From Erodium maritimum (lineage: Eukaryota; Streptophyta; Magnoliopsida; Geraniales; Geraniaceae), in assembly GCA_963921825.1 (NCBI GenBank), contig OY997589.1, forward strand, positions 75,686,523 through 75,750,522: DNA of 64,000 nucleotides, read 5' to 3'. The first letter of the stretch is position 1, and every line of letters begins with the position of its first letter. The position numbers were made by a program, and so were the translations under genes. The notes beneath the pieces were generated by a model. It did not search any database. It was given only the letters and a program-made list of their open reading frames with translations, and was not told the DNA's origin. This document shows positions 4,493 through 64,000 of the stretch, in pieces.

Positions 4493-5242
4493 CCACGTTA
4501 TCCTCTCCTACTCCACTACCTCCACCTTCATCTGAACCCTCTCGCCCTATGACTACTAGAGCGAGAGACATTCTCTTTCAACCATGTCGGGTTCTTAATC
4601 TTCTTGTCATATCTACGGATCCCTCGCATGTTCATTGCTCTTATACTCATGCTCTTTCTGATTCTTACTGGACAAATGTGATGCACTCTGAAATTGATGC
4701 CTAACGTGCAACACACATGGGAGCTCTTTCCTTGTCCACCCGTTGTTAACGTTGTTGGATCCAAATGGATATTTTGTCATAGTTTTTTGTACTAGTGGTT
4801 CCCTTGAAAGTTACAAAGCTCGACTCGTTGCTCAGTGGCTCACTCAACAACTTTGTCTTAATTATGATGACACTTTTAGCGCTTTCGTCAAACCACCACT
4901 ATTTAAACTATTCTGGGTATTTCTCTTTCCTCTTTTTGTCTTATTCACCAACTTAATGTTAAAAATGCTTTTCTCCACAGTCACTTCACCAAAACTATCT
5001 AGGTGAAACAACCTCCAGGTTTCATCGACTCCTCTTCTCCACATCATGTACGTCGTCTCAAAAAGGCCATATATGGTCTCAAAATAACCCCTCGAGCTTG
5101 GTATCAACTCTTTGCTACCTACCTTGCCTCTCTTAGTTTTGTAAGTAGCAAAGCCGGCACCTCACTTTTCATATATAGGTGTGGCTCTCATAGTTCCTTC
5201 CTCATTCTTTATGTTGACGATATTCTTCTCACCGCTTCCTAA
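4493..5242 (+). pseudogene. Ty1/copia reverse transcriptase fragment
   Basis: The order of motifs is that of a plant Ty1/copia polymerase: a proline/serine-rich linker ending PMTTRAR; MHSEIDA; then YKARLVAQW, NYDDTFSAFVKP, KQPPGFIDSSSPHHV, RLKKAIYGLK, RAWYQLF and the catalytic YVDDILLTAS at the end. The frames shift at least twice (breaks near 4705 and 5006), and no protease, integrase core, RNase H or LTR is adjacent. It is a decayed internal fragment on the plus strand. Confidence 0.88.
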
Positions 5243-10050: not shown

Positions 10051-10934
10051 TTAAATTAGTGAATAGGTGAAGAAAAAAATGGACAATTTTCCACATGGCA
10101 CCATGCTATTACAATTATGCCCTTACTTGTGTGAGAATGGATGAAAGTGGCGTGTATGTGGGTTGGATTGGGGTGATGATGTGACATTTTGATGAGTGTT
10201 GGATCATAAGTGTCACGCCCCAAATCCAGTTTTTGACCGAAATTGAGACGCGACTAAAGATTTACAGTAAAACAAGAGAAATAAAGATAAATAAAGTTCC
10301 AAAATGATATAAACTTCCGAAAGTGAAGAGTCGCAGTTCAATTAGTAAAATACAAAGTCCAACATAAACCAAAAAGGTGTACGTCTCTAAACCTAGCTAA
10401 ACCCTCAGCAGCTCCCAAGCTCCGAGAGCCCGGCAAGTACTGCTTTCGCTCGACACCTGAAACACCACAAAGACAGGAGGGGTGAGCTTACGCTCAGTAG
10501 GAAAAGTAAAAGAACTCCAAACACACCATTTAACCTCACGGTAATTTGGTAATTAGGGTAAACTAGGAAGAAGACCCAACAAGCTGTCTTTAGAAAAAAC
10601 CCTTACCAGCCCAACCACACAATATAAATCCACTTGTAATCCATACAGAGAAAACCATAGAAAAAGGCACACAGCAGAACACACATAGAGTCCACAGGAC
10701 AGCACACAGCACAATAACAGGGAAGGGTCCGAACGAAACGCACACAGATGTCGTAAACTGCGGGAGCCAACTCCAACGATTCGCACACAGCCGCTTATAT
10801 CGCACCGGAACACACAGCGTCAGTCACGATATCTTCCTCCTAGCTGACGTGCCCTAGCTGCAACGATAACAAGCGTGTCCTGGCACGGGAGGTCCAACAG
10901 AAGCTACTGAACCAACCTGACGTGGTCCTCTCAC

Positions 10935-11835
10935 CTAGGTCTGCGGCTGAAATGAGCCAGAGGTCCTCTGCCTCCTCGACTCCCGGAACTCAAATGGCCC
11001 CAAAGCACCGCTCGGTCTGGGCCTGACCTCCCGAGCTCTAGCAGACTCTCTGAAGCGTCGCTTTATAGTCTGAGCTTGCTCCACTAGCTCGGAGAACACC
11101 TGGGTCCTCAACACAGCGACCATGTCTCCAATCTCCGGATGGAGCCCTCCCTCAAAACGCCGGCATCTGAGATCCTCCAACTGCACCATCTCCGGAGCGA
11201 AGCGAGCTAGAGTGGTGAAGCGCGCCTCGTACTCCGACACCGACAGAGTCTCCTGTCGTAGGTCCAGGAACTGTTGACGTCTGTCATCCAGCACGGCCCG
11301 GGGGAAGTACTGCTCGAGAAAGCGCTGCCCGAACAGCACAAAGTCCTCTCCCACCCGAGTCTGCTCCCGGCGCCACCAGTGGTAGGCCTCCCCTTCCAGG
11401 TGGAAGGCTGCAAATGATACTCGAAGTATCCCGCTCACTACCCCAGAAGTGTCGAGGTTACGGGTAATCCGGTCTAGCCATCTCTCGGCAGCCTCGGGGT
11501 CTGGCTCCCCGGAGAACACAGGCGTGCCAAGCTTGCGGAAATTATGCAATGCCAGTGAGGTGTAGCTGTCGACCTGTATAGGCCCATCAGAAGTCGCTGC
11601 AGTTGCAGCAGGTGCCGACTCCGGTGTAGGAGCTGCAGCCTCTCTACGGGCGAAGGCAGCTGCCAGCCCATGCACTGTGCGGGTCAGTCCTCTCATGCCC
11701 CCCAACGGGAGCAGCCTGGGAGCTGGTCGCCCCGAGAAACTCAGCAGTAGGCTGCTGTCCCCGACCCCTAGCTGGCCGTCCTCGGCCTCCAACTGGCCGT
11801 CCTCGGGTGCCTCGTGGAGCATACGTACGAGCCAT
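10935..11835 (-). pseudogene. Gag fragment embedded in the 3' LTR
   Basis: Starting from the ATG at 11835 (MARTYAPRGTRGRP), this is the N-terminal and capsid part of a Ty3/gypsy Gag. A Retrotrans_gag-type core includes FSGEPDPEAAERWLDRI, FHLEGEAYHWWRRE, QYFPRAVLDDRRQQFL and ARFAPEM. Compared with the main copy it has a 21-bp tandem gain near the start (GGRGRP repeated) and a deletion of about 32 bp near 11693. That deletion shifts the frame, so residues 1-55 and the core lie in different frames. The core itself is open to a TAG at 10935. Sequence beyond the stop reaches CYRC, the start of the first zinc knuckle, where the embedded segment ends. Confidence 0.88.
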
Positions 11836-11864
11836 GACGAAGATCCTTTGTACGTCCAACACAC

Positions 11865-12299
11865 AGGTTTCAGTTTCTTACACGAAGAAACACGCGCTTA
11901 ACACTAGTTAACGCCACACACAGACCGACTCGCTAATACTTATAGTAGTAATAAACTAGATATAGTATAGTCACACAAATGCACCCAGCAGAGAAGTTGC
12001 ACATTAGTGCTTCACACAGATATATATGTATACACACAGCAGGGTTACCACCCGAATCACTTAGTAACAAGCACAAACATGTCACACAGACTACCGAATT
12101 ATTTCACAGAGCAAAATCACACAGTTCAACTTCCAACCAATTCAAGTTCTTATTGATATCTTAAAGCATATAACGTTCATGTTGATCTCTCGTCGTTACA
12201 ACCCTGCTCAGGCGTCCCCGAGTTGCGTTGTAACCACTAGACATCCCACTATTCACATCCAGATACAGTGGCCCCTATTGCTGAATTGTGATGGTACAT
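11865..12299 (-). other. Second copy of the retrotransposon leader, in the 3' LTR
   Basis: Almost identical to 15302-15740, the untranslated leader upstream of gag in the main copy. It stops before the primer binding site and joins LTR sequence at 12300. Confidence 0.85.
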
Positions 12300-12713
12300 C
12301 CAGTTTCTGGTGCTCGGGACTGAGACAGGAGATGAAGAAGAGGTGGAGGAAGGAGAGGGAGTCCGACGATGATGTCGGGGAGAGGTGAGACGGCGGCGCT
12401 GCTACGTCTGGTACACGAAGACGAGACGAGTCAGAGAGAGAAGGGGGAGAGTTCGCGTGGGAGAGATGAACAGTAGCGAACAATTAGGGTTCGCACGCCC
12501 TTTAAACGATGGGTCTGGGCTTCGCGAGGTAACAGGCCAGATCTGGAACTCGTGCGTGGGCTCTTCCACTAAGCGGGTTGGGCCCGTACTGGCCCAAGTC
12601 AGTTCTAAACCCCTTTTTTTTTAATTTCTTTTCCAAACAGCTTGTAGCAAAACACACACCCCCACATTTCAGATTGCACTTTCACACCCTTTTAAAATTA
12701 AGCGGGTTTTATA

Positions 12714-12727
12714 GTCTACCCCCCTTA
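12714..12727 (-). promoter_or_regulatory. Polypurine tract
   Basis: The minus strand reads TAAGGGGGGTAGAC directly before the 3' LTR start. It would prime plus-strand DNA synthesis. The same tract lies at 59240-59253 next to the LTR of the second gag-only element. Confidence 0.9.
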
Positions 12728-13859
12728 AAAGAATTTCGTCCTCGAAATTTAAAGTGCACGTACCCACTTAACCCTATCTCAGGGAGCGTCCGATTAAAAC
12801 TCTTAGCCCATCCTCCCTCGAACACACGGAAAACACTTAAACCAGTTAGTCGATACCGGAAACCTCCGTCAGTCGAGACGTCACACCGACCCACGCAACT
12901 TGGTCGAGACATCCTATACCGGAACCGTCCGTCGGCATATGCATCGAACCATAACAAGACTTACGTCGCACTTAAAACAGATTCAGCACACAGACACTTC
13001 TCCTCGGCCACTCACTCGTTTTAACCAAGTATCGCGCCGCTCAACAACAAGAGAAGTCCATGTTCCGTTACTCGGACAATCGTCAACGGACTCCAAGCAC
13101 CCTCGTTAATCCAAAAGAATAACACGCAACTCAACTACTTTACAAGTCGAAACACCCACCGTACCACGACACTAAAGACACTACAAGAACCATTCCCTCA
13201 GGCTCTGAACGGCTTGGTTACCTCACGCGTATCTCATCCTCGCGCTTCCGCGTCAACTCTGCACGGTTCTCAATCGTCCACGATCACGCGACTTTTCAGT
13301 CGTCTTTTCTAGCAACTCGGGACCACAAGGTCAACGGTAAATTCCCAAGTGTGCCCTGCTTGGGCAATTGACCAGCCCTACCACCCAACGCTTCGTACGG
13401 TGCCATAACGTTACTGGCCTGAAAGCGTTGTGGCAGTCGTACTCGGCGATTTGCTTTCGGGTACCCTGTGAGGTACTCCCACTTTTACCATACACTGCAC
13501 ACACTCGTCAAAACACAACGTACTCCGTCGGGGTGTCAAGACGTCAGGACCGCATCAAGGTTCTACTTTTAGACCCCCACGTCTCATTAAGGGTAAAGAA
13601 ATAGACAAAAGCGATGCATGTGGGTTATGGGCCCACCACGCTTCCACTGTGCCACTTTGACCTCAACGTTGCTCGGAGAGCGAAACAAGAACCAACAAGA
13701 TAACAACTTAAACGATGCAAAAGTTCACAGCCGATTCAGTAAATAAACGCAACAAAACCAAACGATTCAAATACATGTCTTAAAATAGGAAGTAAGTCTC
13801 CAATGTCAAAACACAAGCAACGCTCAGACTCTCGCTAACCTCATGCTCCGCGATGTCCT
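12728..13859 (-). other. Non-coding spacer between gag and polypurine tract
   Basis: This is where pol would lie in an autonomous Ty3/gypsy element. No protease, reverse transcriptase, RNase H or integrase motif is visible in any frame. It contains a conserved block at about 13380-13440 and an initiator-tRNA-like segment at 13620-13661, both shared with the second gag-only element. Confidence 0.8.
13620..13661 (-). other. Initiator tRNA-Met-like segment (5' 42 nt)
   Basis: Read on the minus strand, the same sense as the retrotransposon, 38 of 42 bases match the first 42 bases of the plant initiator tRNA-Met as I know it. The match includes the D arm and the diagnostic anticodon arm GGTGGGCCCATAACCCAC with anticodon CAT. 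Differences from the tRNA are at positions 1, 5, 12 and 16, all transitions. The T arm and 3' acceptor strand do not follow, so it is not a functional tRNA gene. Confidence 0.85.
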
Positions 13860-15274
13860 CTAATCCAGAGCGTGCTCAAAGTCGCGATCGATCTCATGAT
13901 CGTAATCCTGTCTCTCCGTCCGTGAATCAACGACAGCATACACCTGACAATGCTGCATCGTTGGTCCGTCTCTCGGAGGTGGTGGAAGTTCCACCGGCCT
14001 ACCAGCCCTCTGCCTCGGCGATGGTGCGATGGCTGCCTCCCTCGGTCCTCTCTGCGTCTGGGCCTGACGCTGCTGGAGTGCTGGTGAGTGCCCTATCTGC
14101 GACTGTTGTGGTCGCTGAGCTGGCGCCATCGAATACTGCTCGGGGCACCTGAAAGCGAAGTGTCTGGGCCTACCACAAAGATGACACATCAGTGGCCCGA
14201 CACTCGACCTCTCATCGGGTCTCCCCATCTGGCGATCCATAGGTCTGTCTCTCCCCGAGCAATCTCGTGCCATGTGCCCTGGCTGTCTGCAACGATAACA
14301 AGCGCGTCCTGGCACAGGAGGTCCAACAGAAGCTACTGAACCAACCTGACGTGGTCCTCTCAGCTGGGTCTGCAGCTGAAATGAGCCAGAGGTCCTCTGC
14401 CTCCTCGACTCCCGGAACTCAAATGGCCCCAAAGCACCGCTCGGTCTGGGCCTGACCTCCCGAGCTCTAGCTGACTCTCTGAAGCGTCGCTCTATAGATT
14501 GAGCTTGCTCCACTAGCTCGGAGAACACTTGGGTCCTCAACACAGCGACCATGTCTCCAATCGTCGGATGGAGCCCTCCCTCAAAACGCCAGCATCTGAG
14601 ATCCTCCGACTGCACCATCTCCGGAGCGAAGCGAGCTAGAGTGGTGAAGCGCCCCTCGTACTCCGACATCGACAGAGTCTCCTGTCGTAGGTCCAGGAAC
14701 TGCTGACGTCTGTCATCCAGCACGGCCCGGGGGAAGTACTGTTTGAGAAAGCGCTGCCCGAACTGCACAAAGTCCTCTCCCACCCGATTCTACTCCCGAC
14801 GCCACCAGTGGTAGGCCTCCCCTTCCAGGTGGAAGGCTGCAAATGATACTCGAAGTCTCCAGCTCACTACCCCAGAAGTGTCGAGGTTACGGGTAATCCG
14901 GTCTAGCCATCTCTCGGCAGCCTCGGGGTCTGGCTCCCCGGAGAACACAGGCGTGCCAAGGTTGCGGAAATTCTGCAATGCTAGTGAGAGTAGTTGTCGA
15001 CCTGTATAGGCCCATCAGAAGTCGCTGCAGTTGCAGCAGGTGCCGACTCCGGTGTAGGAGCTGCAGCCTTTCTACGGGCGAAGGCAGCTGCCAGCCCCTG
15101 CACTGTGCGGGTCAACTCCTCAAAAGCTGCCGCCTGGACTGTATCAGTCCTCTCATGCCCCCCAGCGGGATCAGCCTGGGAGCTGGTCGCCCCGACAAAC
15201 TCAGCAGTAGGATGCTGTCCCCGGCCCCTAGCTGGTCGTCCTCGGGTGCCTCGTGTAGCATACGTACGAGCCAT
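13860..15274 (-). pseudogene. Gag of the gag-only retrotransposon
   Basis: The ATG at 15274 opens MARTYATRGTRGRPARG. A basic/Gly-rich N-terminus and an Ala/Pro-rich linker are followed by a Retrotrans_gag-type capsid core (FSGEPDPEAAERW, FHLEGEAYHWWRRE, QYFPRAVLDD). Two CX2CX4HX4C zinc knuckles follow (CYRCRQPGHMARDC and CHLCGRPRHFAFRC). The frame ends EHALD and a stop, shortly after a QVYAV motif that in autonomous relatives marks the gag-protease boundary. A one-base loss near 14985 and a TAG at WWRRE near 14787 break it. Gag would form the particle and bind RNA, with enzymes supplied in trans by another element. Confidence 0.92.
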
Positions 15275-15301
15275 GACGAAGATCCTATGTACGTCCAACA
15301 C

Positions 15302-16113
15302 ACAGGTTTCAGTTTCTTACACGAAGAAACACGCGCTTAACACTAGTTAACGCCACACACAGACCGACTCGCTAATACTTATATTAGTAATAAACTAGAT
15401 ATAGTATAGTCACACAAATGCACCCAGCAGAGAAGTTGCACATTAGTGCTTCACACAAATATATATGTATACACACAGCAGGGTTACCACCCGAATCACT
15501 TAGTAACAAGCACAAACATGTCACACAGACTACCGAATTATTTCACAGAGAAAAATCACACAGTTCAACTTCCAGCCAATTCAAGTTCTTATTGATATCT
15601 TAAAGCATGTAACGTTCATGTTGATCTCTCGTCGTTACAACCCTGCTCAGGCGTCCCCGAGTTGCGTTGTAACCACTAGACATCCCACCATTCACATCTA
15701 GATACAGTGGCCCCTATCGCAGAATTGTGATGGTACATACACTTTAGTTTCTGTAGAAAATCGGGCATGACCCGTTTGTAAATTAGGTCGACCATCCGCT
15801 TATGCGAGAACAGCAAATACCAAAACACACTCGTTTACATAATACAACACTCGGGCTATAGTACCTTCCTTGTTAATGGATAGCCAAGTCCAAATTGGGA
15901 CCCAAGTTCGGTCAACACCAAAAAACCACACAGTTTTAACAAAGTCCACGACACTCAGACCGTACACCACACCAAACCGAGACTCATTCTGTCTCGTTTC
16001 AACGCATAGGACAACCTCCGACTTGCGTAACCGACATAGAGTAACCTATCGACCCAACTCTACCCACCTAAGTGACGTACGGTCCGAGGTTTTGAAAATC
16101 ATTTCAAATGCAA
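15302..16113 (-). other. Retrotransposon untranslated leader
   Basis: Lies between the primer binding site and gag. There is no coding frame. Part of it (about 15620-15760) is related to 63600-63760 in the second gag-only element, so the leader is conserved between the families. It may hold packaging signals (inference). Confidence 0.8.
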
Positions 16114-16129
16114 CCAGGCTCTGATACCA
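16114..16129 (-). promoter_or_regulatory. Primer binding site for initiator tRNA-Met
   Basis: The minus strand reads TGGTATCAGAGCCTGG three bases after the end of the 5' LTR. It is complementary to the CCA-bearing 3' end of plant initiator tRNA-Met (15 of 16 bases) and is the usual site for first-strand cDNA priming. Confidence 0.93.
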
Positions 16130-16132
16130 AAT

Positions 16133-18857
16133 TGTCACGCCCCAAATCCGGTTTTTGACCGAAATTGAGACGCGACTAAAGATTTACAGTAAAACAAGAG
16201 AAATAAAGATAAATAAAGTTCCAAAATGATATAAACTTCCGAAAGTGAAGAGTCGCAGTTCAATTAGTAAAATACAAAGTCCAACATAAACCAAAAAGGT
16301 GTACGTCTCTAAACCTAGCTAAACCCTCAGCAGCTCCCAAGCTCCGAGAGCCCTGCTAGTACTACTTTCGCTCGACACCTGAAACACCACAAAGACAGGA
16401 GGGGTGAGCTTACGCTCAGTAGGAAAAGTAAAAGAACTCCAAACACACCTTTTAACCTCACGGTAATTTGGTAATTAGGGTAAACTAGGAAGAAGACCCA
16501 ACAAGCTGTCTTTAGACAAAACCCTTACCAGCCCAACCACACAGTATAAATCCACTTCTAATCCACACAGAGAAAACCAGAGAAAAAGGCACACAGCAGA
16601 ACACACATAGAGTCCATAGGACAACACAATAACAGGGAAGGGTCCGAACGAAACGCACACAAATGTCGTAAACTGCGGGAGCCAACTCAATCGATTCGCA
16701 CACAGCCGCTTATATCGCACCGGAACACACATCGTCAGTCACGATATCTTCCTCCTCACACAGACGAAGGGTAACATCCTTGACCGGAAATCCTTCAGTC
16801 CGATGTCTTCCTCCTCACACAGATGAAGTGCGCTACTCTCATGTACCGAACTGGAACTCCACCGATTTGCACACAGCCGCTTATATCGCACCGGAACACA
16901 CAGCGTCAGTCACGATATCTTCCTCCTCACACAGATGAAGGGCTCTACTCAATGTAAATATAAAACCGGCACACTCCTCGATCAATCCCATCCCAGATTA
17001 TGAGTCATCTGAACACGCCATCCTTGGCCTCGATATGGTTATCCATCTGGCTACACCGTCTCTTAAACACAAACAGGGTTTCACACACAACACACTCACT
17101 GATGAACTAAGTATACCAGCCGAACCATCTTAGCATACGCCCGGTCTATCACTCACCCGGTCATTTCACAATCAATGGTTCACATAGTCACACATGGCAC
17201 ACTTGCCCACACAGCCACATCATGCAACAACAATGATAGTTCTATTTAGACTCTCACACAACAATCATAATATTATTTAGACCCTCACACATCGAGTATA
17301 CTATTAATTAGACTCTCACACAGCGAGTAGGGCACACATCATGCAAATCCTAGGACCCAGACATGGCCCAGCTATCAGCACAACAATTATCCAAAAATCA
17401 CAAGCAGTTCCAGCGGATAACAATCATGTTCGTACCATGTATTACTATGACTCGTCTAATTTATCCAATAAATCTAAAGGTTTTTCCTATATGCCACTAA
17501 GACTGTTCCGATTATTAATAACCCTAAACATGCATAATAGTTATCAGTCCATAATTAAGGCGGAGGTTCGGAACTTTCCCTACCTCAAGGTGGTGACAAG
17601 GCGGCGTCTTCTAGCTGCGGACGACCGGGCCAACACCGTCTTCCAAGGCGAAGTCCCCGAAATCCAAATCTGGGTTTAAACAATTAAAAACCCAATCAGA
17701 TCTCGAGTTCAAGGTTCTTGGAAGGTCAAAACATCTCTAAAATAACCAGATTTTAAGTCAAATTAATTATTAAATTAATTAATAGTTTATGCCGACCCGG
17801 ATCTGACCCGGATCCGGCCCAACCCGAGTTCAGACCCGGTCCAAACCCGGATCCAAACCCAGACCCGGACCGACCCGTGCCCGACCCGGATTCAGACCCG
17901 AGTCCAGGCCCGAAACCCGGAGTCAGACCAGGCCGAGGCCCGAACCAGATCCGGGCCCGAGGCCCAAATCTAATTCAGGATCGCGGCCCAGCTAAGCTCC
18001 AGGCCCGAGCCAAGGCTCGTTCTGGTCCAGTCGGAGTGGGGAACGGCGGTGGTCGGGGCTAGGGTTCCAGCAGCTCCGGCGACGACTCCAGCGGCGGTTC
18101 TAACGGCGGTAAAGGCGTCGGAAGCTCGGGAACACGATGGGGGGAAAGGTTGGGCGAGACCCACACTCTTCCGTCCAGAACTGACGGCCAGAGAGCTCGC
18201 CGGCGCGCGAGTTCCAAATCTGGAACTCGAGCGCTCCGACGACGCTCTCCGGTCTCATCCGACCCCCAAACGAGCCCGAAACTCACGATTCAGGCGAATA
18301 AGAGGATGGGGAAGACAAATCTGGTGAGGGTTTTGACTCACCGTCGCTGAAACTTCACGGGTAAGGCGCGGTGGCGATGGGTTTCGACGGAGGTTGTCGC
18401 GAATCGAGAACGGAGAGAGAGGGAACCAGTTTCTGGTGCTCGGGACTGAGACAGGAGATGAAGAAGAGGTGGAGGAAGGAGAGGGAGTCCGGCGATGATG
18501 TCGGGGAGAGGTGAGACGGCGGCGCTGCTACGTCTGGTACACGAAGACGAGACGAGACAGAGAGAGAAGGGGGAGAGTTCGTGTGGGAGAGATGAACAGT
18601 AGCGAACAATTAGGGTTCGCACGCCCTTTAAACGATGGGTCTGGGCTTCGCGAGGTAACGGGCCAGATCTGGAACTCGTGCGTGGGCTCTTCCACTAAGC
18701 GGGTTGGGCCCGTACTGGCCCAAGTCAGTTCTAAACCCTTATTTTTTTTCTTTTTTCTTTTTTGAATTTCTTTTCCAAACAGCTTGTTGCAAACCCCCCC
18801 CCCCCCTACGTTTCAGATTGCACTTTCACACCCTTTTAAAATTAAGCGGGTTTTACA
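16133..18857 (-). repeat. 5' LTR of the gag-only element (complete)
   Basis: A 2725-bp LTR with TG/CA ends. It contains a tandem internal repeat of about 170 bp (the CACACAGCCGCTTATATCGC unit recurs near 16696 and 16866) and a C/G-rich ACCCGGA-type repeat at 17780-17990. Open frames inside it (for example 16475-16732 minus, 18049-18327 plus, 18338-18622 minus) are non-homologous and treated as chance. It would hold promoter and polyadenylation signals. Confidence 0.9.
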
Positions 18858-18938
18858 ATAAGTGAGAGTGGCTAGGATTGGTTCTCACGGTTCCTATGTT
18901 AAGAGTGGTTCTCAATAGATTTCTCCTCGTAGTCACAC

Positions 18939-33552: not shown

Positions 33553-33561
33553 GTTTTATTA

Positions 33562-34608
33562 GGAAAATTTGGAAAAATATGCTTCACAACATAGCATATT
33601 TTTTTTAGTATACTACTATGATTCAATATTTGTAAATCTATGCTTTTAAAATATTTTACGACAAAAATATCCTATTACTATTTGTTTAAATTCCAAAATA
33701 AATTGTATATGAGAGGATTTGAACCATGATTGTTTAAGAAAAAATGTTTGGACTTAACCACTTGTGCTAAATTACTAATATGTATTGTAGCCTTTTATTA
33801 CTTTTTTACTATACTTTATTATATACTAAGTTCTCGTACTACACCTAAATTTAAAATACTAATATGAATAATTGAAAAATACTTATGGTGAACTCTGCAC
33901 GTTTTGCAAATACTTACGGTGTATTTTTTTGTTACAAATACTTATAGTGTATTATTTTTCATGCGTTAAAAGTGTGAAAACTAACGGAAAATTGGGATTT
34001 TAGAGGGTGTGCAACGTTAAATTTTCAAAATAAATAAATAAATATGGGTATACCGTAAGTATTTCAAAATAAATAACTGTGTATACCAAAATAAATACTA
34101 TTTAAAAATATATTTGTATATATATACATATTTATTTATTTTGGAAATTTTAAAGTTTTACATGCTCTAAAATCCCAATTTTCCGTTAGTTTTCACACTT
34201 TTCCACATGAAAAATAATATATAGTAAGTATTTTCAACAAAAAAACAGTACAACGTAAGTATTTACAAAACGTACAGAGTTCACCATAAGTATTTTTCAA
34301 TCATCCGTATTTTTATTCTAAATTTTGGTGTAGTACGAGAACTTAGTATATAATAAAATATAGTAAAATAAATAATAAAAGGTTATAATACATATAAGTA
34401 ATTTAGTACAAGTGGTTAAGTTCAAATATTTTTTCTTGAACAACCATGGTTCAAATCCTCTCCTATACAATTTATTTTGAGATTTAAATTAATAATAAGG
34501 GTATTTTTGTCCTAAAATATTTCAAAAGCATAGATTTACAAATATTGAATTATAGTGGCATACTAAAAAAATATGCTATGTTATGAAGCATAGATTTCCA
34601 AATTTCCC
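33562..34608. mobile_element. Foldback transposon: two arms of about 480-500 bp
   Basis: The left arm (33562 to about 34065) and the right arm (about 34130 to 34608) are inverted copies almost to the centre near 34095. The ends are GGAAAATTTGGAAA and the inverse of TTTCCAAATTTCCC. Flanks GTTTTATTA (33553-33561) and TTTTTATTA (34609-34617) agree at 8 of 9 bases, as for a Mutator-type 9-bp duplication. No protein. Each arm carries a tRNA-like pair of words (right arm: TAGTACAAGTGGTTAAG at 34404 and GGTTCAAATCC at 34448), resembling RNA polymerase III boxes A and B. Confidence 0.85.
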
Positions 34609-34617
34609 TTTTTATTA

Positions 34618-45952: not shown

Positions 45953-46834
45953 CCTAACCTAACCTCGTCACGAGCACTACACAATAAATGTTTACTTAAT
46001 TGATTCGAACCTGATACACCATTAGGGTTTAGTATAAGGTGAATGTGTTAGGAACCTTTAAACTGTACCCAATTTATCATGAACCCATTTTTGAGTGAAA
46101 CACAATGGTCATTTAGGTATTTTGAAATGTTTAAATCAGAATCAATAATCATTTAGGTCACAAATTATGTTCTTTCTTCAACACAAATTCAGTTAACAAT
46201 TATTGAACGTATTGGTCATATTATCTTTTAAATAATATGGACGATATTTTGAATAGTTCATGTTCTTTATCATATTGTATATGATATATTTTATAATATA
46301 TACGATGAAACCGATAGATATATAGTCCATTATATAAGATTCTCTTATTGTCAATGTAGAAAAATTTAGTGTTTCTATGGGTCAGCCAATAAATTCATTC
46401 TAGCTAGCTACTTTTTTAAACTAATCAATGATCAATAGCTTGGGTTTTTATGGTTTTAGGGTCTGGCTCATCGGGTTGTGCTTCCGCTTCACGGTTAGAA
46501 TTAGAGTTAATCTGGTTTTGGTTTTTGCTTTGGAAGCTTCTTCCATTAGTGTTGGCCAATACAGCTACAAATCATCATCTACCATACTAACTCCTAACCT
46601 AACCTCGTCACGATCACTACACAACAAATGTTTACTTAATTGATTCGAACCTGATACACCATTAGGGTTTATTATAAGGTGAATGTGTTAGGAACCATTA
46701 AACTGTACCCAATTTATCATCAACCCATTTTTTAGTGAAACACAATGGTCATTTAGGTATTTTGAAATGTTTAAATCAGAATCAATAATCAATTAGGTCA
46801 CATATTCAGTTCTTTCTTCTACACAAATTCAGTT
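45953..46834. repeat. Direct 243-bp repeat pair inside the CACTA element
   Basis: 45953-46195 and 46592-46834 match almost base for base (CCTAACCTAACCTCGTCACGA at the start, ACACAAATTCAGTT at the end), offset 639 bp. The 396 bp between the copies are unrelated. An internal duplication upstream of the TNPA-like gene. Confidence 0.88.
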
Positions 46835-50439: not shown

Positions 50440-50864
50440 CACCTTACCAACGGATACAAGGAACTTGGCTGACGGATTCAACATATGTGGCTAAGGTTTG
50501 TCAGTTGGCAGACGGATGCACATGCGTGGCTAAGGTTTTTGCACTTGGCAGACGGATGCACATACGTCACTCAAGTTCTTTTCACTTGGCTGACGGATAC
50601 AGCATGCGTGGGTCAAGTTTTTGCACTTGGCAGACGGCTGCACATACGTCACTCAAGTTCTTTTCACTTGGCTGGCGGATACAGCATGCGTGGGTCAAGT
50701 TTTTCCAGTTGGCCGACGGATATGAGTTTCCTTATCTACGGATCTAGCATCCGTCGGCCTGGTGGTTCACTTGGCTGATGGATTGCTGTATCCGTGACCT
50801 AAGGGCCAAAACTTAGGTCACGGATCCATTTTATCCGTCTCCTAAGTCGTTTTCTGCAGTAGTG
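50440..50864. repeat. Right subterminal repeat array of the CACTA element
   Basis: Units of about 45-50 bp (TTGGCAGACGGATGCACATACGT..CTCAAGTT) alternate with ACTTGGCTGACGGATACAGCATGCGTG units. This gives a higher-order repeat of about 100 bp, ending at CACTACTG (inverted). Confidence 0.9.
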
Positions 50865-56245: not shown

Positions 56246-59239
56246 TGTCACGCCCTAAATCCGGTTTTGACCGGACTCGAGACGTGATTTAAGGAAGAAG
56301 CAGTTATAACACTAAAATACCATAACGCAAATAAAAATCCTCCAACTTTACTACAATCCAGAATATCCAAAATCAAAATCATTTAATAAATCCTTTAACC
56401 AAAGGTTTATAAAACTCGTAATAAATTCTTTAACAAAGGTTCATGACCAAAAATATGACCAACGCCTCTAGAGACAAGCACCCGGACCATAGAAACTCCC
56501 GAGCCTCGAGTCCACTACTCAACACGCAAACCTGTAAAACAGTCATAAACAGATAGGGGTGAGCTTACGCTCAGTAGGGAAAATGCATAACCAAGGCGAC
56601 CTTTCAGTTTAATAAATAGGAGTTCACAAGTTTGTTCAAATCTTAATAAGACGAGAAACCAACAGGTGATGAAATACGGAGACAAACCGAGTGTTTAACA
56701 CTTTCAAAGAGTCAACAATAATCATACGAAAATAAGGGAATCAATGCATTTCTTTAAAGAGACATTAGAAAACAGGCGTCCAATTAATGTCGTGGCACAT
56801 GAAGTCACCACCCTCCGATCCACAATACTCGTTGTGTCATGTCGGATTTTCCCTCGGTCCAGAGGAGATGCATAACATCAAAAAGACGTATAACGTCGAG
56901 AACACCGGTAACAACCCTTGAGGGCGCTTATCGTCGGGATTCTCAGAAACGTCTCCAAAGAGCCATATGTCATAGGGAACCAAGGTATTGCTCCCGCAGG
57001 ACACATACACTTGGGTGAATCAACCAATAACCATCCCCCGCAGGGTAAACCATCTAATAACCAATGCCCCGCAGGGTCCAATAATCAATGTCCCGTAGGG
57101 CCTTGTAATCAATGCCTCGTAGGGTCCAATAATCAATGCCCCGCAGGGTCCGATCCACCGGCTATGATACTACCCCACACCGGCACTTCCTTCGGTGTAG
57201 GTACCATACCGGCTACCGACTATGATACTACCCCACACTGGCACTTCCTTCGGTGTAGGTACCACACCGGATACAAAGTCATCGGCTTAGGTACTACCCC
57301 ACACCAGCATTCCCTTTGGTGTGGGTACCTTACAGGCACTACCCCACCCGCAGCATGGGTGCCATACCGATATAGAAACCAACTCAAAGACTCACAAGTG
57401 GGTAACACACTCAAACAATCAAGGAGCAACCAACGCTTAACGAGTCACACTTCTATCACAACACACTACTAGAATCAATCATAATCTTACACTTACCTAT
57501 TACTGACCAACCACGATCCATCGGTCCATCGATCACCTGATCGTACCGTTTGGCACAATCAGTCATACTCGATCACCCATTCAATCATTCAGTCATTCAA
57601 GCATTCAGGCATTCAAGCATTCAATCAAATACGCAATGAAGCAGTCAATTTCCACAATCAAATACTCTAGTTGTATTAGACTCTTAGCTTAACCAAACTA
57701 GGCAACAAAGCATGTGAAGCAAACACAACTAATCCGAGGGCTCATCACGGCCTCTCTACCAGTAAAGCAATTCTCAAGTATTGAAAGCAAGTTACACTAG
57801 TTATTCTCATCCTACGCATGCGTACTAGACACGTTCGGTTATTAATAATTGAACGCGATTATTCTAGTTATTCGCATCCTATATGCAATTCTAGGACCTT
57901 TCCGATTTTATTAACCTAATAGGCATACTAGTATTGAAATTCACGAGGAGTTAGTACTTTCCCTACCTTGTGGTCTTCCTACGAACAAATACTCCTATCA
58001 ACAGTTGTCCGGCTAGCCTCGTCTCCTCGGGCGAAGTCCAAGCTCTCGGGCGAAGTCCCAGTCTGGGTTTTTAACAGTTCAAACTTACGATCAGATTAGG
58101 TACGGTCCAAAGTAAATTCAATACATTGCCTTTTAAACTCGAACGGGATAAAAGCGGGATTATACGACGGATCGGATTCGAGTTCTCGAGCCCCGAGCAC
58201 AAAACTGGTGCACGTTTCCCGAGGCCCGATTCAACGTTCCACTTTTGACCCGTTCTAAGTCCGATGTACCGTTCGGTTTATTTGTCCAAGGTTCCAGTTC
58301 TTTCAACAACCAAAATTCCTCATAATAGATCTGAAACCAGTTAACTCCAATTTTAATTTAATAACCGTTTTTGAAACTCTTTTTAATAAAACTCTGATTT
58401 CGTTTTAAAACCAAATAATTTATGTTCTTTTCCAATCTCAAAGGTTCGAGTCCAGTTTAACCAGATTCGTCCAGATTCAAAAAAACTCGGGCAAAAGAAA
58501 GAGAAGAAGACGGAAGTGCTCGGGGAAAGTTTGTTCGGTCACCGGCAAAGACACCGCCGGCGACCAAGGCTCGGTTTCGACGCTCAACGTAGGACAAACG
58601 ACGGTTACGAGAGGGAGGGTGCGACGTCGGGCGCGGCGGCGGAGCACGGCGTGGATTCCGCCTCAGATCCGGACGAGACCGGCGATTCCGTCCCCAGATC
58701 TTTCGCGATCGCCGGCAAGGTAGTCTGGATGGCACGATGACAGGGCTCGGGAGGGAAGAGGGCGTGATGGAGAGAGGAGGAGCGGTGTCGGCCTTGGTTT
58801 CGGACGGTCATAGGACGAGGGGGCGGCGGCGTGAAGAGAGGAGAACGGCTCGGGAGAGGGAGAATGAGAGGGAGAGGGAGAGGGAGACGAGGGCGTGGCG
58901 GAGGAGCACGGAGCTGGAGAGGTGAGGGGCGGTGGTGGGGATCGGATCTGCGAAGAAGTTGAATGAGAGAGAGAGAGAAGAAGGGGGTAGGTCGGCTGCG
59001 TGAGGAGGAGAGGGGAAAAATGACCGAAACCCTAAAAAAAGGGTATAAGTAGACGGGCCAGGCTAAATGGGCCTCAGACGGCAACCGGGCCTCGCGGCCC
59101 AAAGAGTGAGCTGGGCGGGCTTGGTCTGCGTGCCAGGCCTGGTCCGGACCTGGTCTCTTCCTTTTTTTTTAAACAAAACACAAATTGCAAATTTATGCGT
59201 CGATGTTTCAATACCCTTTTAAAAAGGTCGGGTTTTACA
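56246..59239 (-). repeat. 3' LTR of the second gag-only element
   Basis: 2994 bp with TG/CA ends. The first 60 bases next to 56246 and the last 40 next to 59239 resemble the other element's LTR. The middle does not, and holds minisatellites at 57040-57360 and a GA-rich segment at 58760-58930. Proline- or arginine-rich open frames at 58457-59102 lie in this GC-rich part and are treated as chance. Confidence 0.88.
57040..57360. repeat. Two minisatellites within the LTR
   Basis: About five units of 25 bp (CAATAATCAATGCCCCGCAGGGTC) are followed by three to four units of about 62 bp (ACTATGATACTACCCCACAC, CTTCCTTCGGTGTAGGTACC). Confidence 0.85.
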
Positions 59240-59253
59240 GTCTACCCCCCTTA
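59240..59253 (-). promoter_or_regulatory. Polypurine tract
   Basis: The minus strand reads TAAGGGGGGTAGAC against the LTR start, identical to 12714-12727. Confidence 0.9.
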
Positions 59254-61849
59254 AAAGAATTTTGTCCTCGAAATTTAAAACGAACGCGCTCCACTTGAAC
59301 CTATCTCAGGGAACGTCCTTTTCAAAACTCAAAAGCGAGGGATCCATGGTGTACTTCCGTAGTTGGGAACACGTGGAAGTTGCTAGGCAACGACTCTAGT
59401 TCTGTCTGAAGATCTCAAAATGTACGATAATTTGCGGGGCCAACTTGCCTTCGTCGCAGTCGAACCGCTAAAGGTCCTTCTTAGGCTCATTCTCAAAAAT
59501 ACGCGATCAACGACTGTACAACTCAAAAGGTCGAAGCCGTCTTTCTGCATAACTCTTTTATCGGCTCTGCGCGGTCTTTAACCGTTCCGAAACAACGTAA
59601 CCTTTGCTTATACTTTCAACACTTGAACACACTAGTTGCCCAAACGCCATACTTGGCGGTGATAAGCAGTCTTACTCAACAGTTCACGATACCAATGTGT
59701 TAATAAACTCGATCAAGACTCAAGGAAAAACCGAGTAAAAACAACAAGTCGATTAACCCTCAACGCTAAGGAAAACAGGTAACGGTCTAGATATCCCATA
59801 CCGGAATTTCCATCGGTATAGGGTCGTGCCCGAGTACTCGGAAAGTCGGACAAGGTAGGAACCACACACTAACATAACTTCTCAATTTCCTCATTAGTAA
59901 CTGTTATAGGGACGATTCACACCCTCAATCAAACACTAATAAATCAAGACCAACCACAAACAATTTTACAAGGAAGTAATAAACCGACGCATTCATCACG
60001 ACAATAGATCTCACAAACACTGCAGGGTCAGGAACAACTACTCGTTCAACACATCTAGTGGAAAGGTGGGCGTACCCCAAAAAAGGAAATAACACAACTT
60101 ACCGATAACTTAGTGAAAGGCGGCATGCCTCAAAAACATACCACAATTAAAGGCTCATGCCATACCGAGCATGGCACGCTTGTCCAATCAAATCAACAGG
60201 CCACACCTGGTAAATCCTTTCAAGATTCTCAACCTTGTAACGATTCAACCATTCATCAAGTTTCACAATCCTAGATCAAGGGAAAACCAACAATACTCAA
60301 CTGCGATCGATCATGAAGGTTATCCAACCTGCTACAAATCTCTTACTGTTGACACTTGTTCGCATACTATCAAACGACCAACTCATAAGTTGTTCTATCT
60401 GAGTCATCACCATAGTGAGTCCACAACAAGTGTTGAAATCTCGAGAGTTCGAACGGTTTTTTTGGGGTACCTTGCGCGTAAATTTTCAAACGTCTATCAA
60501 ACAAATTAGGACCAGTCACTGGTCAAATTCTAAATTCTCACTGTGCTCCGCATGGCGCAAACCCTGACCTACCATGCGACGCTTCGTTCGGTGCCATCTT
60601 GTTACTGGCCTGGAAGTTCGTGGTAATCGTATTTCGCTAACTGTTTCCGGATCTCAACGTGAGGTGCTCTCACTTCTACGGTGTAACTTAGCGGTTACGC
60701 TAGTTCTCGCGGGACGTTGGCGTTCATCCTTCCCTTGTTGACAAAGATATGCCTTGGTAACCGGTTCGCGTTTCCCGTATTCGGCTCTGCTGGGAATGTC
60801 GCTCGATGTCGTTGTATTTCTCGATGTGGTTTGGCTATAATTTGCGGCGCGAATGATGTGACTCTCGAACGATCTTCTTGCTGTTGCGCGTAACGAGCTC
60901 TCTCCTTGATCCGATACATGCTCCGTTCTTGGTGTCGTCGTCGCCGCCGTCTTCTCCTGGAGCTTGACGTGTCGGTACTGGGTATCGACTCTTCATCTTG
61001 ACGCGGTCCAGCTTCCGGTGGTCTTCATGCCTCCTTAGCGCTCCGTCCCGCTCCTTCTTGAAGTCGTGCTGCATTCTTCTTGGCGATGCGCTCGTACAGG
61101 TCTTTCATCTTTCTAGCTCTTTGGGTTGACGTTCGGTGCGGTCAACTCTGTTGGCGCGAATCTGCATGTTTCAAGGATGTCGGCGTCGTCTCTTGCTTCA
61201 GGTTAGTCCCGATGTCGACTTCGCGAACTAATAGCAGTCCGATCGGCTCCTCTGGGAATAACGTAGGGACAACACTCTCTAATCTAATCTCTCACATATG
61301 TCACACATTCGTCCAACTCTGCGCTTGTTAACAGGGGTGTCAAGCCCAAAATGGTCGTCTGAAAGGTTCGAATCTTATGACTTAAATCTTTTAGCGGGGG
61401 TAGAAGAAGCTGGAGGATACGAATCCTGTGGGTTATGGGCCCACCACGCTTCCGCTGCGCTACTTTGATCTTATCGTCACTCGGTCATCTCCGGCGACCG
61501 GTCGAACCATTTACTAAGCAAGGCTGCAGCCTTTCACTGCTCGAGCATTCGCTGTTGATAGCACTCGATGAACGCCTGCTGCTTCACCATTCGGTTCTTA
61601 ATATTCGATTCGCACTATCGAAGAAGGAAAAGAACTTTCAGTACGTCCCGGTCAGTTACTCCACTTTCAGACTCAAACTGACGCTAGTCGGTACTACCAC
61701 ACCTCTAGTCGGTGTGTTAAGGTACCGGTGGGCTTATCAGTTTTAAATTCATTCTAACATAAGGTCACCACAAAACAGTATAACCCAGTGTAATGCTCAA
61801 GTGTCAGCAACACAATATCCAAAATAAACAGTACATCGGTACTCTAAGC
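59254..61849 (-). other. Non-coding gag-to-polypurine-tract spacer
   Basis: No pol motif in any frame. About 60560-60640 is homologous to 13380-13440, and 61425-61469 is the initiator-tRNA-like segment. A minus-strand frame 61074-60695 (lysine/arginine-rich) lacks a known family. Confidence 0.75.
61425..61469 (-). other. Initiator tRNA-Met-like segment (5' 45 nt)
   Basis: On the minus strand, in the sense of the element, 43 of 45 bases equal the first 45 bases of plant initiator tRNA-Met as I know it (differences at positions 5 and 9, both G to A). This covers the acceptor 5' strand, the D arm, the complete anticodon arm with CAT, and ACAGG. It is followed by a short stem-loop (AGGAT-TCGT-ATCCT) in the place of the T arm, but the 3' acceptor strand is not recognisable, so it is not a functional tRNA gene. 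Confidence 0.9.
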
Positions 61850-63114
61850 AATCTCAAGATCGGTATCAAGTCTCTCAACTCGGGGTCCGGGAATCGTGTA
61901 CACTCGTCCCTGTCGAATCGGAGGTCTTCCTCTCGGTGGTGGTGGAAGAATCTACTGATGTGATAGCATGTCCTCTTATCGGCTCTCGTAGGCCGACCTA
62001 TGGGACGGTTTGTAGATCCATCACTCAACTGGCAGTCTCGGCCCAGATGTTCCAACTGCTTGCTCGAGGGCAAACTGTGCCACCCTGGCAGGTCCAAAGG
62101 ACGCTACTGCCCCAACCCGTCGTGTCCCACAGGAATGGGTCTGTGGCTGAAACAATCCTGAGGTCCTCTGCCTCCTAGGATCGCGACTCTCTGACGGCCT
62201 CAAGAAGCCATTCAGCCTCGGCCTGGTCTTCTGCGCTCTGGCGATCTCCCGAAAATGCTTCTCAACGGCTAGTGCCTGGTCCACTAGTACAGAAAATTCC
62301 TCATCTTGAAGGCAATAACTCGATCTGTGATAGACGGGATGAGTCCTCTCTAGAGACGCATGTGGTGGCTCTCCTCGGTCTGCACCATCTCGGGCGTGAA
62401 GCGCGGCAGGGACGGGAACCGAGCCTCATACTCAGAGACGATCATCCCTCTCTGCTGCATATCCAAAAACTACTGGTGTCGGTCATCTCGAACAGATCGA
62501 GAAGAAAAAGAAAAAAAAATATTGTTACAGGAACAGTCTGTTGAACAGCTGAAGGTCATCTCCAAGCCTAGTCTGCATACGCTGCCACCAATAGTATGCT
62601 TCTCCCTCAAGCTGGAAGGTCGCAAAAGATACTCTCAAACGACTAACAGATACCTCAGACGTATCCAGGATGCAGTTACTCCGTTCCAACCAATCTGTGA
62701 CACCCTCGGGTCTGAACTCCCGGAGTAAACTGATGTGCATATCTTGCGAAAATCTCTGAGTGTCTGGCCCGTAAAGCTGTCAAAATGGTCTGGCGTCTCA
62801 ACATAGGTTGTGGTAGTCGTGGTCACGGTCTCTGGTGTCGACGCTGCAGTTTCCTGCTGAGCGATGATCGTTGCTAATAGTGCGCGAACCACCTCCTCTA
62901 GAGGGGCCGCCTGAGTCGGCTCTGCGATTGGAGGAACTCTAGGTGGTAATCCTGACGGTTCACCCTCAAAACTCTGGTGCTCTGTAGAAGTAGCACCCTG
63001 GGCACTCGCTGCCCCTGCCTGCTCAACAGTTGGTGTCTGGCTCTGCCCCACAGTTGGGCGGTTCCTGGTCCCTCTCGGGATGTAAACACGGGACATCTCG
63101 TGTACTCGTTGCAT
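61850..63114 (-). pseudogene. Gag of the second gag-only retrotransposon
   Basis: An ATG at 63114, or more likely 63096 by comparison with the other element (MSRVYIPRGTRNRP), opens an N-terminal Pro/Ala/Thr-rich region. The capsid core follows in pieces: FRPEGVTDWLERSN, FATFQLEGEAYYWWQRMQ (62740-62525), and after an A-rich insertion near 62500-62520 the part ALAVEKHFREIARAQKTRPR (62284 onward). The zinc knuckle is destroyed (only QLEHLGRDC remains). Near the end one frame still reads PPPPRGRPPIRQGRVYTIPG, the usual gag-protease junction, and nothing of the protease follows. Multiple frameshifts; dead. Confidence 0.85.
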
Positions 63115-64000
63115 TTATAACGTAAGTATTCATAATTCAATGTAACTCAAGTGGTTGGATTTATCATAACGGGACGTTCTCATGCGTCTTGAAGTGATCC
63201 TACTTGGATCGCTAGTACGTAGTATAGTTTAGAACAACCGGTTCGATCAAAGCACAAGGACGTTCACGCGCGTCCCACCAGAATCAAATAATGACGAACA
63301 ACACTTAGGCTCAGTAAATATATATAATACTTTATATATAGGCAGACAAGGCCGCATCTTAGTGCGTCTCACAACAGCAATCATCGGTTCAATCATATCA
63401 ATCAACTCCAAGAAGAGGAACAGTCTCAAGTAGTTCACACAAATCACAACGCAACAGGCATACCCCTCGATCGGGTATCTTCCCAACGCGTGGGGTTCAA
63501 ATCATAACACAACAATTCCACAATTTATGTCCTCAAATTCTTTCTCATAGGACTCAACTTTTTCCATAATCTCAACCCCTTGCATTTCTCTTATAACATT
63601 CATGTCGATTTCACGCCGTTACAACCCGATTCAGGTGTCCCCGAATCTTGTTGTAACCACTTTACATCCAACCATCACGTTCGACTACAGTGGCGCCCCT
63701 GAGTCAACCCGTGATAGTGCAAACATTTCAGTTCTACAGAAATTTCGGCATGACCTATTCGTATTTTCCACTAACCATCCGCTTAAACGGGACATTTACC
63801 AATCAATTTCACAAACGTTCAGCACATAATGTTCCCACAATCCTCAAAAGTACACATCACAGCAAAGTACCGCAGTACCACTCGGGTTTCTACCCTTTAT
63901 TCAATTGACCTCCAATCGGGTCAACATTTCAACTTTAATCCTTAAATAACGGTCAACATCTTAACCAAGTCAACACCCTAACAATTCAACACTTTAACAA
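63115..64000 (-). other. Leader of the second gag-only retrotransposon
   Basis: Untranslated. 63600-63760 is homologous to the leader of the first element (CGTTACAACCC, CCCCGA, TTGTAACCACT, ACAGTGGC). The primer binding site and 5' LTR are not reached. Confidence 0.75.

Follow-up and report, generated by a model that had tools for sequence, protein, structure and literature searches.

Why should a retrotransposon carry, in sense orientation, one half of the tRNA that primes its own reverse transcription? The question is raised by a 64-kb stretch of the Erodium maritimum genome (hereafter the window), in which positions 61425-61469 of the minus strand are identical at 43 of 45 sites (95.6%) to nt 1-45 of the host initiator tRNA-Met (tRNA-iMet), in agreement with the initial annotation; the only differences are G5A and G9A. 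On local alignment over the whole window and both strands, this segment scores 41, a second copy in a sister element, overlooked in the initial annotation, scores 36, and the next best place scores 14. The segment is not a functional tRNA gene, as it lacks the full cloverleaf and its identity to the tRNA stops at nt 43-45; neither ARAGORN nor Rfam (gathering threshold) makes any call in the window, as expected for half a tRNA. The annotated placement, in sense orientation between gag and the polypurine tract, is also correct: the segment shares the minus strand with the element's gag, ~520 nt downstream of the gag-similar stretch and ~2.2 kb upstream of the polypurine tract.

The element in question belongs to a family with long LTRs, a tRNA-iMet primer binding site (PBS), a Retrotrans_gag/zinc-knuckle gag and a polypurine tract. 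On the minus strand of the window, its degenerate gag (61991-63122) has 79% DNA identity to the gag of a related copy, L015, in which the Pfam domain Retrotrans_gag (PF03732) and zinc knuckles (zf-CCHC) are found; its polypurine tract (59240-59263) ends TTTTAAGGGGGGTAGAC; and its 3′ LTR starts TGTAAAACCC at 59239 and extends to at least ~57977, the low end of locus L009, within which this copy's PBS and 5′ LTR lie outside the 64-kb window. The sister element lies within the window (10211-18857, minus strand), with an LTR pair and a CTTAT target site duplication (18858-18862 and 10206-10210). Its 5′ LTR (16133-18857, minus strand; TGTAAAACC...TGACA) is followed by a PBS (16112-16129, minus strand) complementary at all 18 nt to the tRNA-iMet 3′ end; the perfect match extends over 20 nt (16112-16131) and is thus longer than the 16114-16129 originally reported. 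The sister gag (13863-14783, minus strand), a 307-aa open stretch, has the same Retrotrans_gag and zf-CCHC domains; the gag region read in one frame from 15274 contains 12 stops, and its DNA is ~68% identical to that of the window family over 655 nt aligned. The sister's tRNA-iMet fragment occupies 13617-13661 (minus strand), where tRNA nt 2-43 align at 13619-13660 with 39 of 42 identities. The middle of its 3′ LTR (10211-12713, minus strand) has been replaced by 10858-12306, a 93% copy of the element's own internal leader and gag (14287-15745), which is another mark of a template-switching history.

The elements with the segment are of the Ty3/gypsy type and are primed by tRNA-iMet. Among 21 copies, the 18-nt PBS is a perfect complement of tRNA-iMet in 11, has one mismatch in five and two or three in two, and is unrecognisable in three, supporting the earlier proposal that this part of the primer tRNA was captured by the lineage it primes. 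The distance from segment to PBS is ~2.5-3.4 kb in most copies measured. Direct repeats flank the segment in 13 of 20 fetched copies, and the 11 of these 13 repeat pairs that were measured differ by 4.0-7.9%, equivalent to ~1.6-3.2 My at a rate of 1.3e-8 per site per year. In segment-bearing copies, the third codon position of gag is the most variable (0.338 versus 0.274 and 0.259). No RT motif of the form searched was found in the sense strand of 20 copies; the L034 family retains decayed pieces of protease and RT. A protein search with the L015 gag retrieved, from the best 7992 candidates scored, a single relative, in Erythranthe guttata, to which 66% of the query aligns at 44% identity; the frame running through the segment gave no match among 22 candidates and a scan of viral contigs for the segment 40-mer gave none either.

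The segment is widespread in the 763-Mb host genome. The exact 18-mer of the anticodon arm (tRNA nt 25-42) occurs 318 + 318 times, tRNA genes included, and the reversed 18-mer not once. Forty of these loci, taken among the matches listed and all on contig C1, comprised by eye two tRNA genes and 38 element contexts with related flanks, in a sample that is conditioned on the 18-mer itself. When a typed 72-nt tRNA-iMet gene was compared with the genome, at least 19 full-length matches at 93-97% were obtained (40 of 1606 candidates scored), together with several partial matches at 100% ending at nt 45-47, two of which (L034 and L045) were read and proved to be element copies. A sample selected by gag, and hence not conditioned on the 18-mer, was assembled from 20 copies retrieved with the L015 gag (ranks 2-23 of 40 matches, excluding copies already sampled; one, L103, lies at a place also among the earlier matches) and 10 of 40 matches retrieved with the sister gag. 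The segment is present in 21 of these 30 copies, contrary to the possibility, considered in the initial annotation, that most copies lack it. An insertion into a single copy is ruled out by the sister copy, the 18-mer occurrences and the gag-selected carriers.

Among the copies retrieved with the L015 gag, 12 of 20 have the segment, three (L109, L110, L117) are truncated or run into other sequence, and five (L108, L112, L113, L114, L119) have protease and early RT frames, some of them with a stop or a changed motif, and no segment in the 701 nt read. Among those retrieved with the sister gag, nine of 10 have the segment, one of them (L127) cut at nt 28, and the tenth (L122) has a protease and no segment in the 271 nt read. 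All six protease-bearing copies thus lack it in the stretch read near gag, and the carriers look gag-only. Taken together with the 21 carriers, this sequence comparison suggests that the segment marks gag-only, non-autonomous copies. It also speaks against another early concern, that the segment might be a conserved coding motif of pol: it appears non-coding and is missing from the stretch read in the copies with a protease.

The segment is far better conserved between families than its surroundings. In a comparison of 12 window-type with nine sister-type copies (20 gag-selected copies and the window's sister, leaving out L127 and the nine copies without the segment), net divergence is 0.015 for nt 1-43 and 0.320 for nt 44-110. 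Conservation is uniform along the segment (0.013 for nt 1-8, 0.021 for nt 9-25, 0.011 for nt 26-42) and is lost at its borders (0.155 for the 15 nt before it, 0.267 for nt 44-70). When 55 of 65 copies are grouped into six hand-made families, the 10 that fit none being left out, nt 1-24 again give 0.015, and the flanks 0.199 (five families), 0.151 and 0.290. On a flank-based tree of 37 copies found by the 18-mer only, nt 1-24 underwent 2.08 changes per site, compared with 5.11 in the H1-H2 region described below, 6.55 farther upstream and 5.76 on the downstream side (Mann-Whitney p 2e-9 versus nt 1-24); the 22-nt linker alone has 3.09 per site (p 0.08). Within families the picture is different. 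The 28 copies of the L034-like family vary as much in the segment as in the flanks (0.091 versus 0.106, p 0.45), and two of them have a deletion removing nt 1-4; within the gag-selected window-type copies, diversity is 0.133 for both nt 1-43 and nt 44-70, and 0.231 for nt 1-8. The A residues at positions 5 and 9, proposed in the initial annotation as element variants, are subfamily variants (G5A in 15 and G9A in 29 of 65 aligned copies) and are not common to all copies. The near-zero divergence between families points to selection or to refreshing from the tRNA, and the simplest reading of these comparisons would be that the segment is maintained, by one or the other, in propagating lineages and decays freely in dead copies.

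The protease-bearing copies offer a glimpse of how the segment may have been acquired. In the protease-bearing copy L112/L131, gag continues in one frame via a spacer into FDTGASHSF without any segment, a layout resembling that of a gag-protease protein from Erythranthe guttata. In the L034-like family, the sequence before the segment comes after a gag zinc knuckle, and the sequence after the segment resembles protease just past DTG, scoring 32 where the best of 20 shuffles scores 17.5; in L034, no counterpart of the 130 nt preceding the segment is found in the protease-bearing copy (14, null 16). In L015, of the window family, the 130 nt after the segment show no detectable similarity to protease (14, null 17.5), and a weak similarity to the spacer and protease start is seen in the 430 nt before the segment (25.5, null 21). 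Flanks are alignable on both sides in the families compared, which points to one capture; the sister family shares only ~15 nt upstream. We thus infer one old capture of the tRNA 5′ half by template switching. Reverse transcriptase would have jumped from the genomic RNA into the packaged primer tRNA where both read ACnGG (ACAGG at the tRNA end, ACTGG at the DTG codons of the protease), and run-off at the tRNA 5′ end would then have set the 5′ junction at tRNA nt 1. Whatever it may do at present, the segment has the look of a relic left by template switching into the primer.

Two putative hairpins precede the segment on the minus strand. H2 (61482-61500; CGGTCG-CCGGAGA-TGACCG), with a purine-rich GGAG loop, is separated from the tRNA segment by a linker at 61470-61481; H1 (61526-61540; GCAGT-GAAAG-GCTGC) is weaker. 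In an alignment of 61 copies, which leaves out L037, L049, L053 and the sister-type L062, 95.1% of H2 cells are paired, with a UA to CG change in five copies, and 86.2% of H1 cells, with one clade-level compensatory change (AU in 26 and GC in 26 of 61). For the named structure as a whole, paired cells (92.9%, shuffled 91.7) and covariation (0.152, shuffled 0.130) are close to the shuffled values; cells changed on both sides number 33 (shuffled 16.0), although one slid control also gives 33, and pairs with double changes number 4 versus 4.1 in shuffles. The covariation support comes mainly from the one H1 change and one H2 pair. Mean pair probabilities on in-context folding are 0.56 for H2, 0.52 for the anticodon arm, 0.31 for H1 and 0.16 for the D arm. 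Within the segment, 14 of 61 copies have lost the closing pair of the anticodon stem, and neither this stem nor the D stem shows a compensatory change. H1 and H2 are likely, if weakly supported, as predicted structures. Purine-loop hairpins lie upstream of the segment in five of the six families compared; the sister family has kept the segment without H1 or H2.

We propose, with a probability of roughly one in three, that the segment is a cis-acting mimic of the primer tRNA, which would recruit a partner's Gag-Pol in trans. The presence of the segment in gag-only copies, and its absence from the stretch read in the protease-bearing ones, suggests a task needed by an RNA without its own Pol. 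By presenting half of tRNA-iMet to proteins that select tRNA-iMet, the element RNA would recruit the partner's Gag-Pol or RT, perhaps also methionyl-tRNA synthetase, so that a Gag-only RNA would be packaged and primed in trans; the purine-loop hairpins just upstream may be Gag contacts. A more tentative extension is that a parasite's half-primer handle captures the reverse-transcription machinery of an autonomous partner, marking the dependent element and not being seen in its possible providers. The mimic is consistent with conservation between families, identity to the primer, the non-coding character of the segment and its limitation to copies without a protease frame in the stretch read. 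It is at odds with a D arm that is rarely predicted to fold in context, an anticodon closing pair that is broken in some copies and the flank-like variation within families. Moreover, nt 1-8, although left without a partner in half a tRNA, are as conserved as the rest of the segment, a uniformity that pairing or refreshing fits as well as mimicry does.

Pairing could take place at the cDNA stage, a possibility that we consider doubtful and yet worth weighing, in which the minus-strand copy of the segment pairs with nt 1-43 of the tRNA attached at that strand's 5′ end. Such pairing could fold the cDNA, aid primer removal or give a second, tRNA-fragment-primed plus-strand start. It predicts uniform identity to the tRNA, even in the loops and the unpaired acceptor strand, and this is what is observed; the three most widespread variants (G5A, G9A and G30A) are all G to A changes, which keep a G-T wobble in the hybrid. 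However, the G-to-A excess is small (six sites versus two C-to-T among variants in at least four copies; 28 versus 22 in the upstream flanks), and the absence of the segment from protease-bearing copies is left unaccounted for.

Refreshing, which we likewise regard as rather improbable, involves no function at all: RT would switch between the segment and packaged tRNA-iMet, renewing the segment each round. The primer should be available in particles, and near-zero net divergence limited to tRNA-derived letters would be explained without selection; among the genomic matches listed, a few start at tRNA nt 1 and end at nt 46-52 or 66, and some of these could be extensions of this kind. Nevertheless, refreshing cannot be frequent, because G9A and G5A persist in many copies.

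An unlikely explanation is that of a decoy for the synthetase, by analogy with HIV-1, in which the anticodon arm would imitate the primer and free the tRNA from methionyl synthetase. Of 65 copies, 64 keep the CAT anticodon, 37 of them having been chosen by an exact 18-mer that contains CAT; the decoy would need mainly the anticodon arm, yet conservation between families extends equally to nt 1-25, and the closing pair is lost in 14 of 61 copies. That the segment is a neutral passenger of non-autonomous families agrees with its flank-like drift in the L034-like family and is made very improbable by the absence of drift between families. Cell-to-cell movement of RNA has been proposed for plant mRNAs with tRNA-like parts, an idea reportedly set out in one review and one grapevine study; by analogy, the segment might move element RNA between cells, a suggestion that we find highly unlikely, given that no tRNA T arm follows nt 45. 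An internal Pol III promoter, as raised in the initial annotation, or a SINE remnant is scarcely credible: the box A motif falls within the segment, but a sense box-B-like site (≤2 mismatches) occurs in only three of 21 copies, each time at another place (+22 in L009, the window copy, directly after the segment and with two mismatches; +72 in L014; +161 in L018), so that no conserved sense box B lies downstream, and the L034-like family has protease-derived sequence after the segment.

Other candidates were tried and rejected. A coding motif was rejected on the lack of codon periodicity in the stretch before the segment (0.311, 0.284, 0.281), on the finding that none of 27 window-family copies is free of stops in any of the three frames and on the absence of a codon signal in the downstream open frame; among 36 other copies, six are open in one register and three in another over the stretch tested, and inside the segment the third register, into which positions 9 and 30 fall, is somewhat more variable (0.059, 0.083, 0.142). 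A recoding or re-initiation element at the gag-pol junction, prompted by an in-frame TGA inside H2, was abandoned on three grounds: stops in every frame of the window family, no codon signal in the downstream open frame, and a protease-bearing copy that joins gag to protease without the segment. Long-range pairing of the segment with the rest of the element, including the genome circularisation envisaged in the initial annotation, is likewise rejected, since the best pairing energies are within or near those of shuffled segments and no consistent partner is found in nine of nine copies.

Non-autonomous LTR elements with captured small-RNA sequence are already known from Helenus, Ajax and Cassandra, TRIMs whose LTRs contain tRNA- or 5S-derived sequence serving as promoters, according to the portion of the source at hand (PMC10886601). 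Helenus and Cassandra are the closest precedents. The likeness lies in the long retention of small-RNA-derived sequence (of tRNA in Helenus) by non-autonomous LTR elements (PMC10886601, in part). As described there, Helenus-type TRIMs are miniature, with the tRNA or 5S part in the LTR and boxes A and B forming a Pol III promoter (PMC10886601), whereas the present elements are long and gag-bearing and hold an internal 5′ half only, derived from their own primer tRNA, with no conserved box B; neither a tRNA-like part in the LTR nor the pair of boxes A and B that characterize Helenus/TRIMp3 is found. They also resemble TR-GAG, that is, non-autonomous LTR elements with gag only or gag and protease (PMC6022998, in part): paired LTRs, a PBS and a gag domain are all present, and the large non-autonomous elements share the reliance on a partner, while the excerpt of that source mentions no tRNA module (PMC6022998). 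In HIV-1, too, the genomic RNA mimics the primer tRNA (PMC8473020, in part), but the mimic there is said to resemble the anticodon stem-loop and to lie in the PBS region, unlike the true 43-nt copy far from the PBS described here. Ty1 and Ty3 share tRNA-iMet as primer; there the tRNA touches the genomic RNA at additional sites, and its 5′ part was at one time proposed to join two genomes (PMC4974528, in part); these contacts are complementary to the tRNA, and the excerpted text mentions no sense copy such as that found here. GGAGAGG-type loops of H2 are similar to the GGAGAAGAG purine loop to which, in the part of the source at hand, Gag of mouse mammary tumour virus binds (PMC8096270). No description of a maintained internal half of an element's own primer tRNA was found in titles and abstract starts of the open-licence literature. 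The comparison bears on the open question of how the RNA of a non-autonomous LTR element is chosen by another element's proteins, for which a conserved 43-nt module of dependent copies, not seen in the stretch read of six protease-bearing copies, is a concrete candidate.

Several minor features were also noted. In window-family copies (e.g. L009, L013, L022), a box-B-like motif on the opposite strand (GATTCGAACC in sense, ≤2 mismatches) lies at ~+72 to +83 from the segment's GTGG, recurring near +72 in most of 20 copies. Downstream of the segment, open stretches of up to 213 aa occur in L028 (2663-3301, minus strand) and at similar places in some other window-family copies; they have neither a Pfam match nor a codon signal, yet vary less than the gag of these copies. 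Elsewhere in the window, an RT-like YVDD motif near 5209 on the plus strand, soon followed by a stop, is perhaps a copia remnant; a ~1 kb inverted repeat (85%) at 33561-34609 is foldback- or MITE-like; two 242-bp direct repeats without LTR-like ends (45953-46194 and 46593-46834) are 95% alike and 640 bp apart; and 50463-50719 is a tandem repeat with an 82-bp unit.
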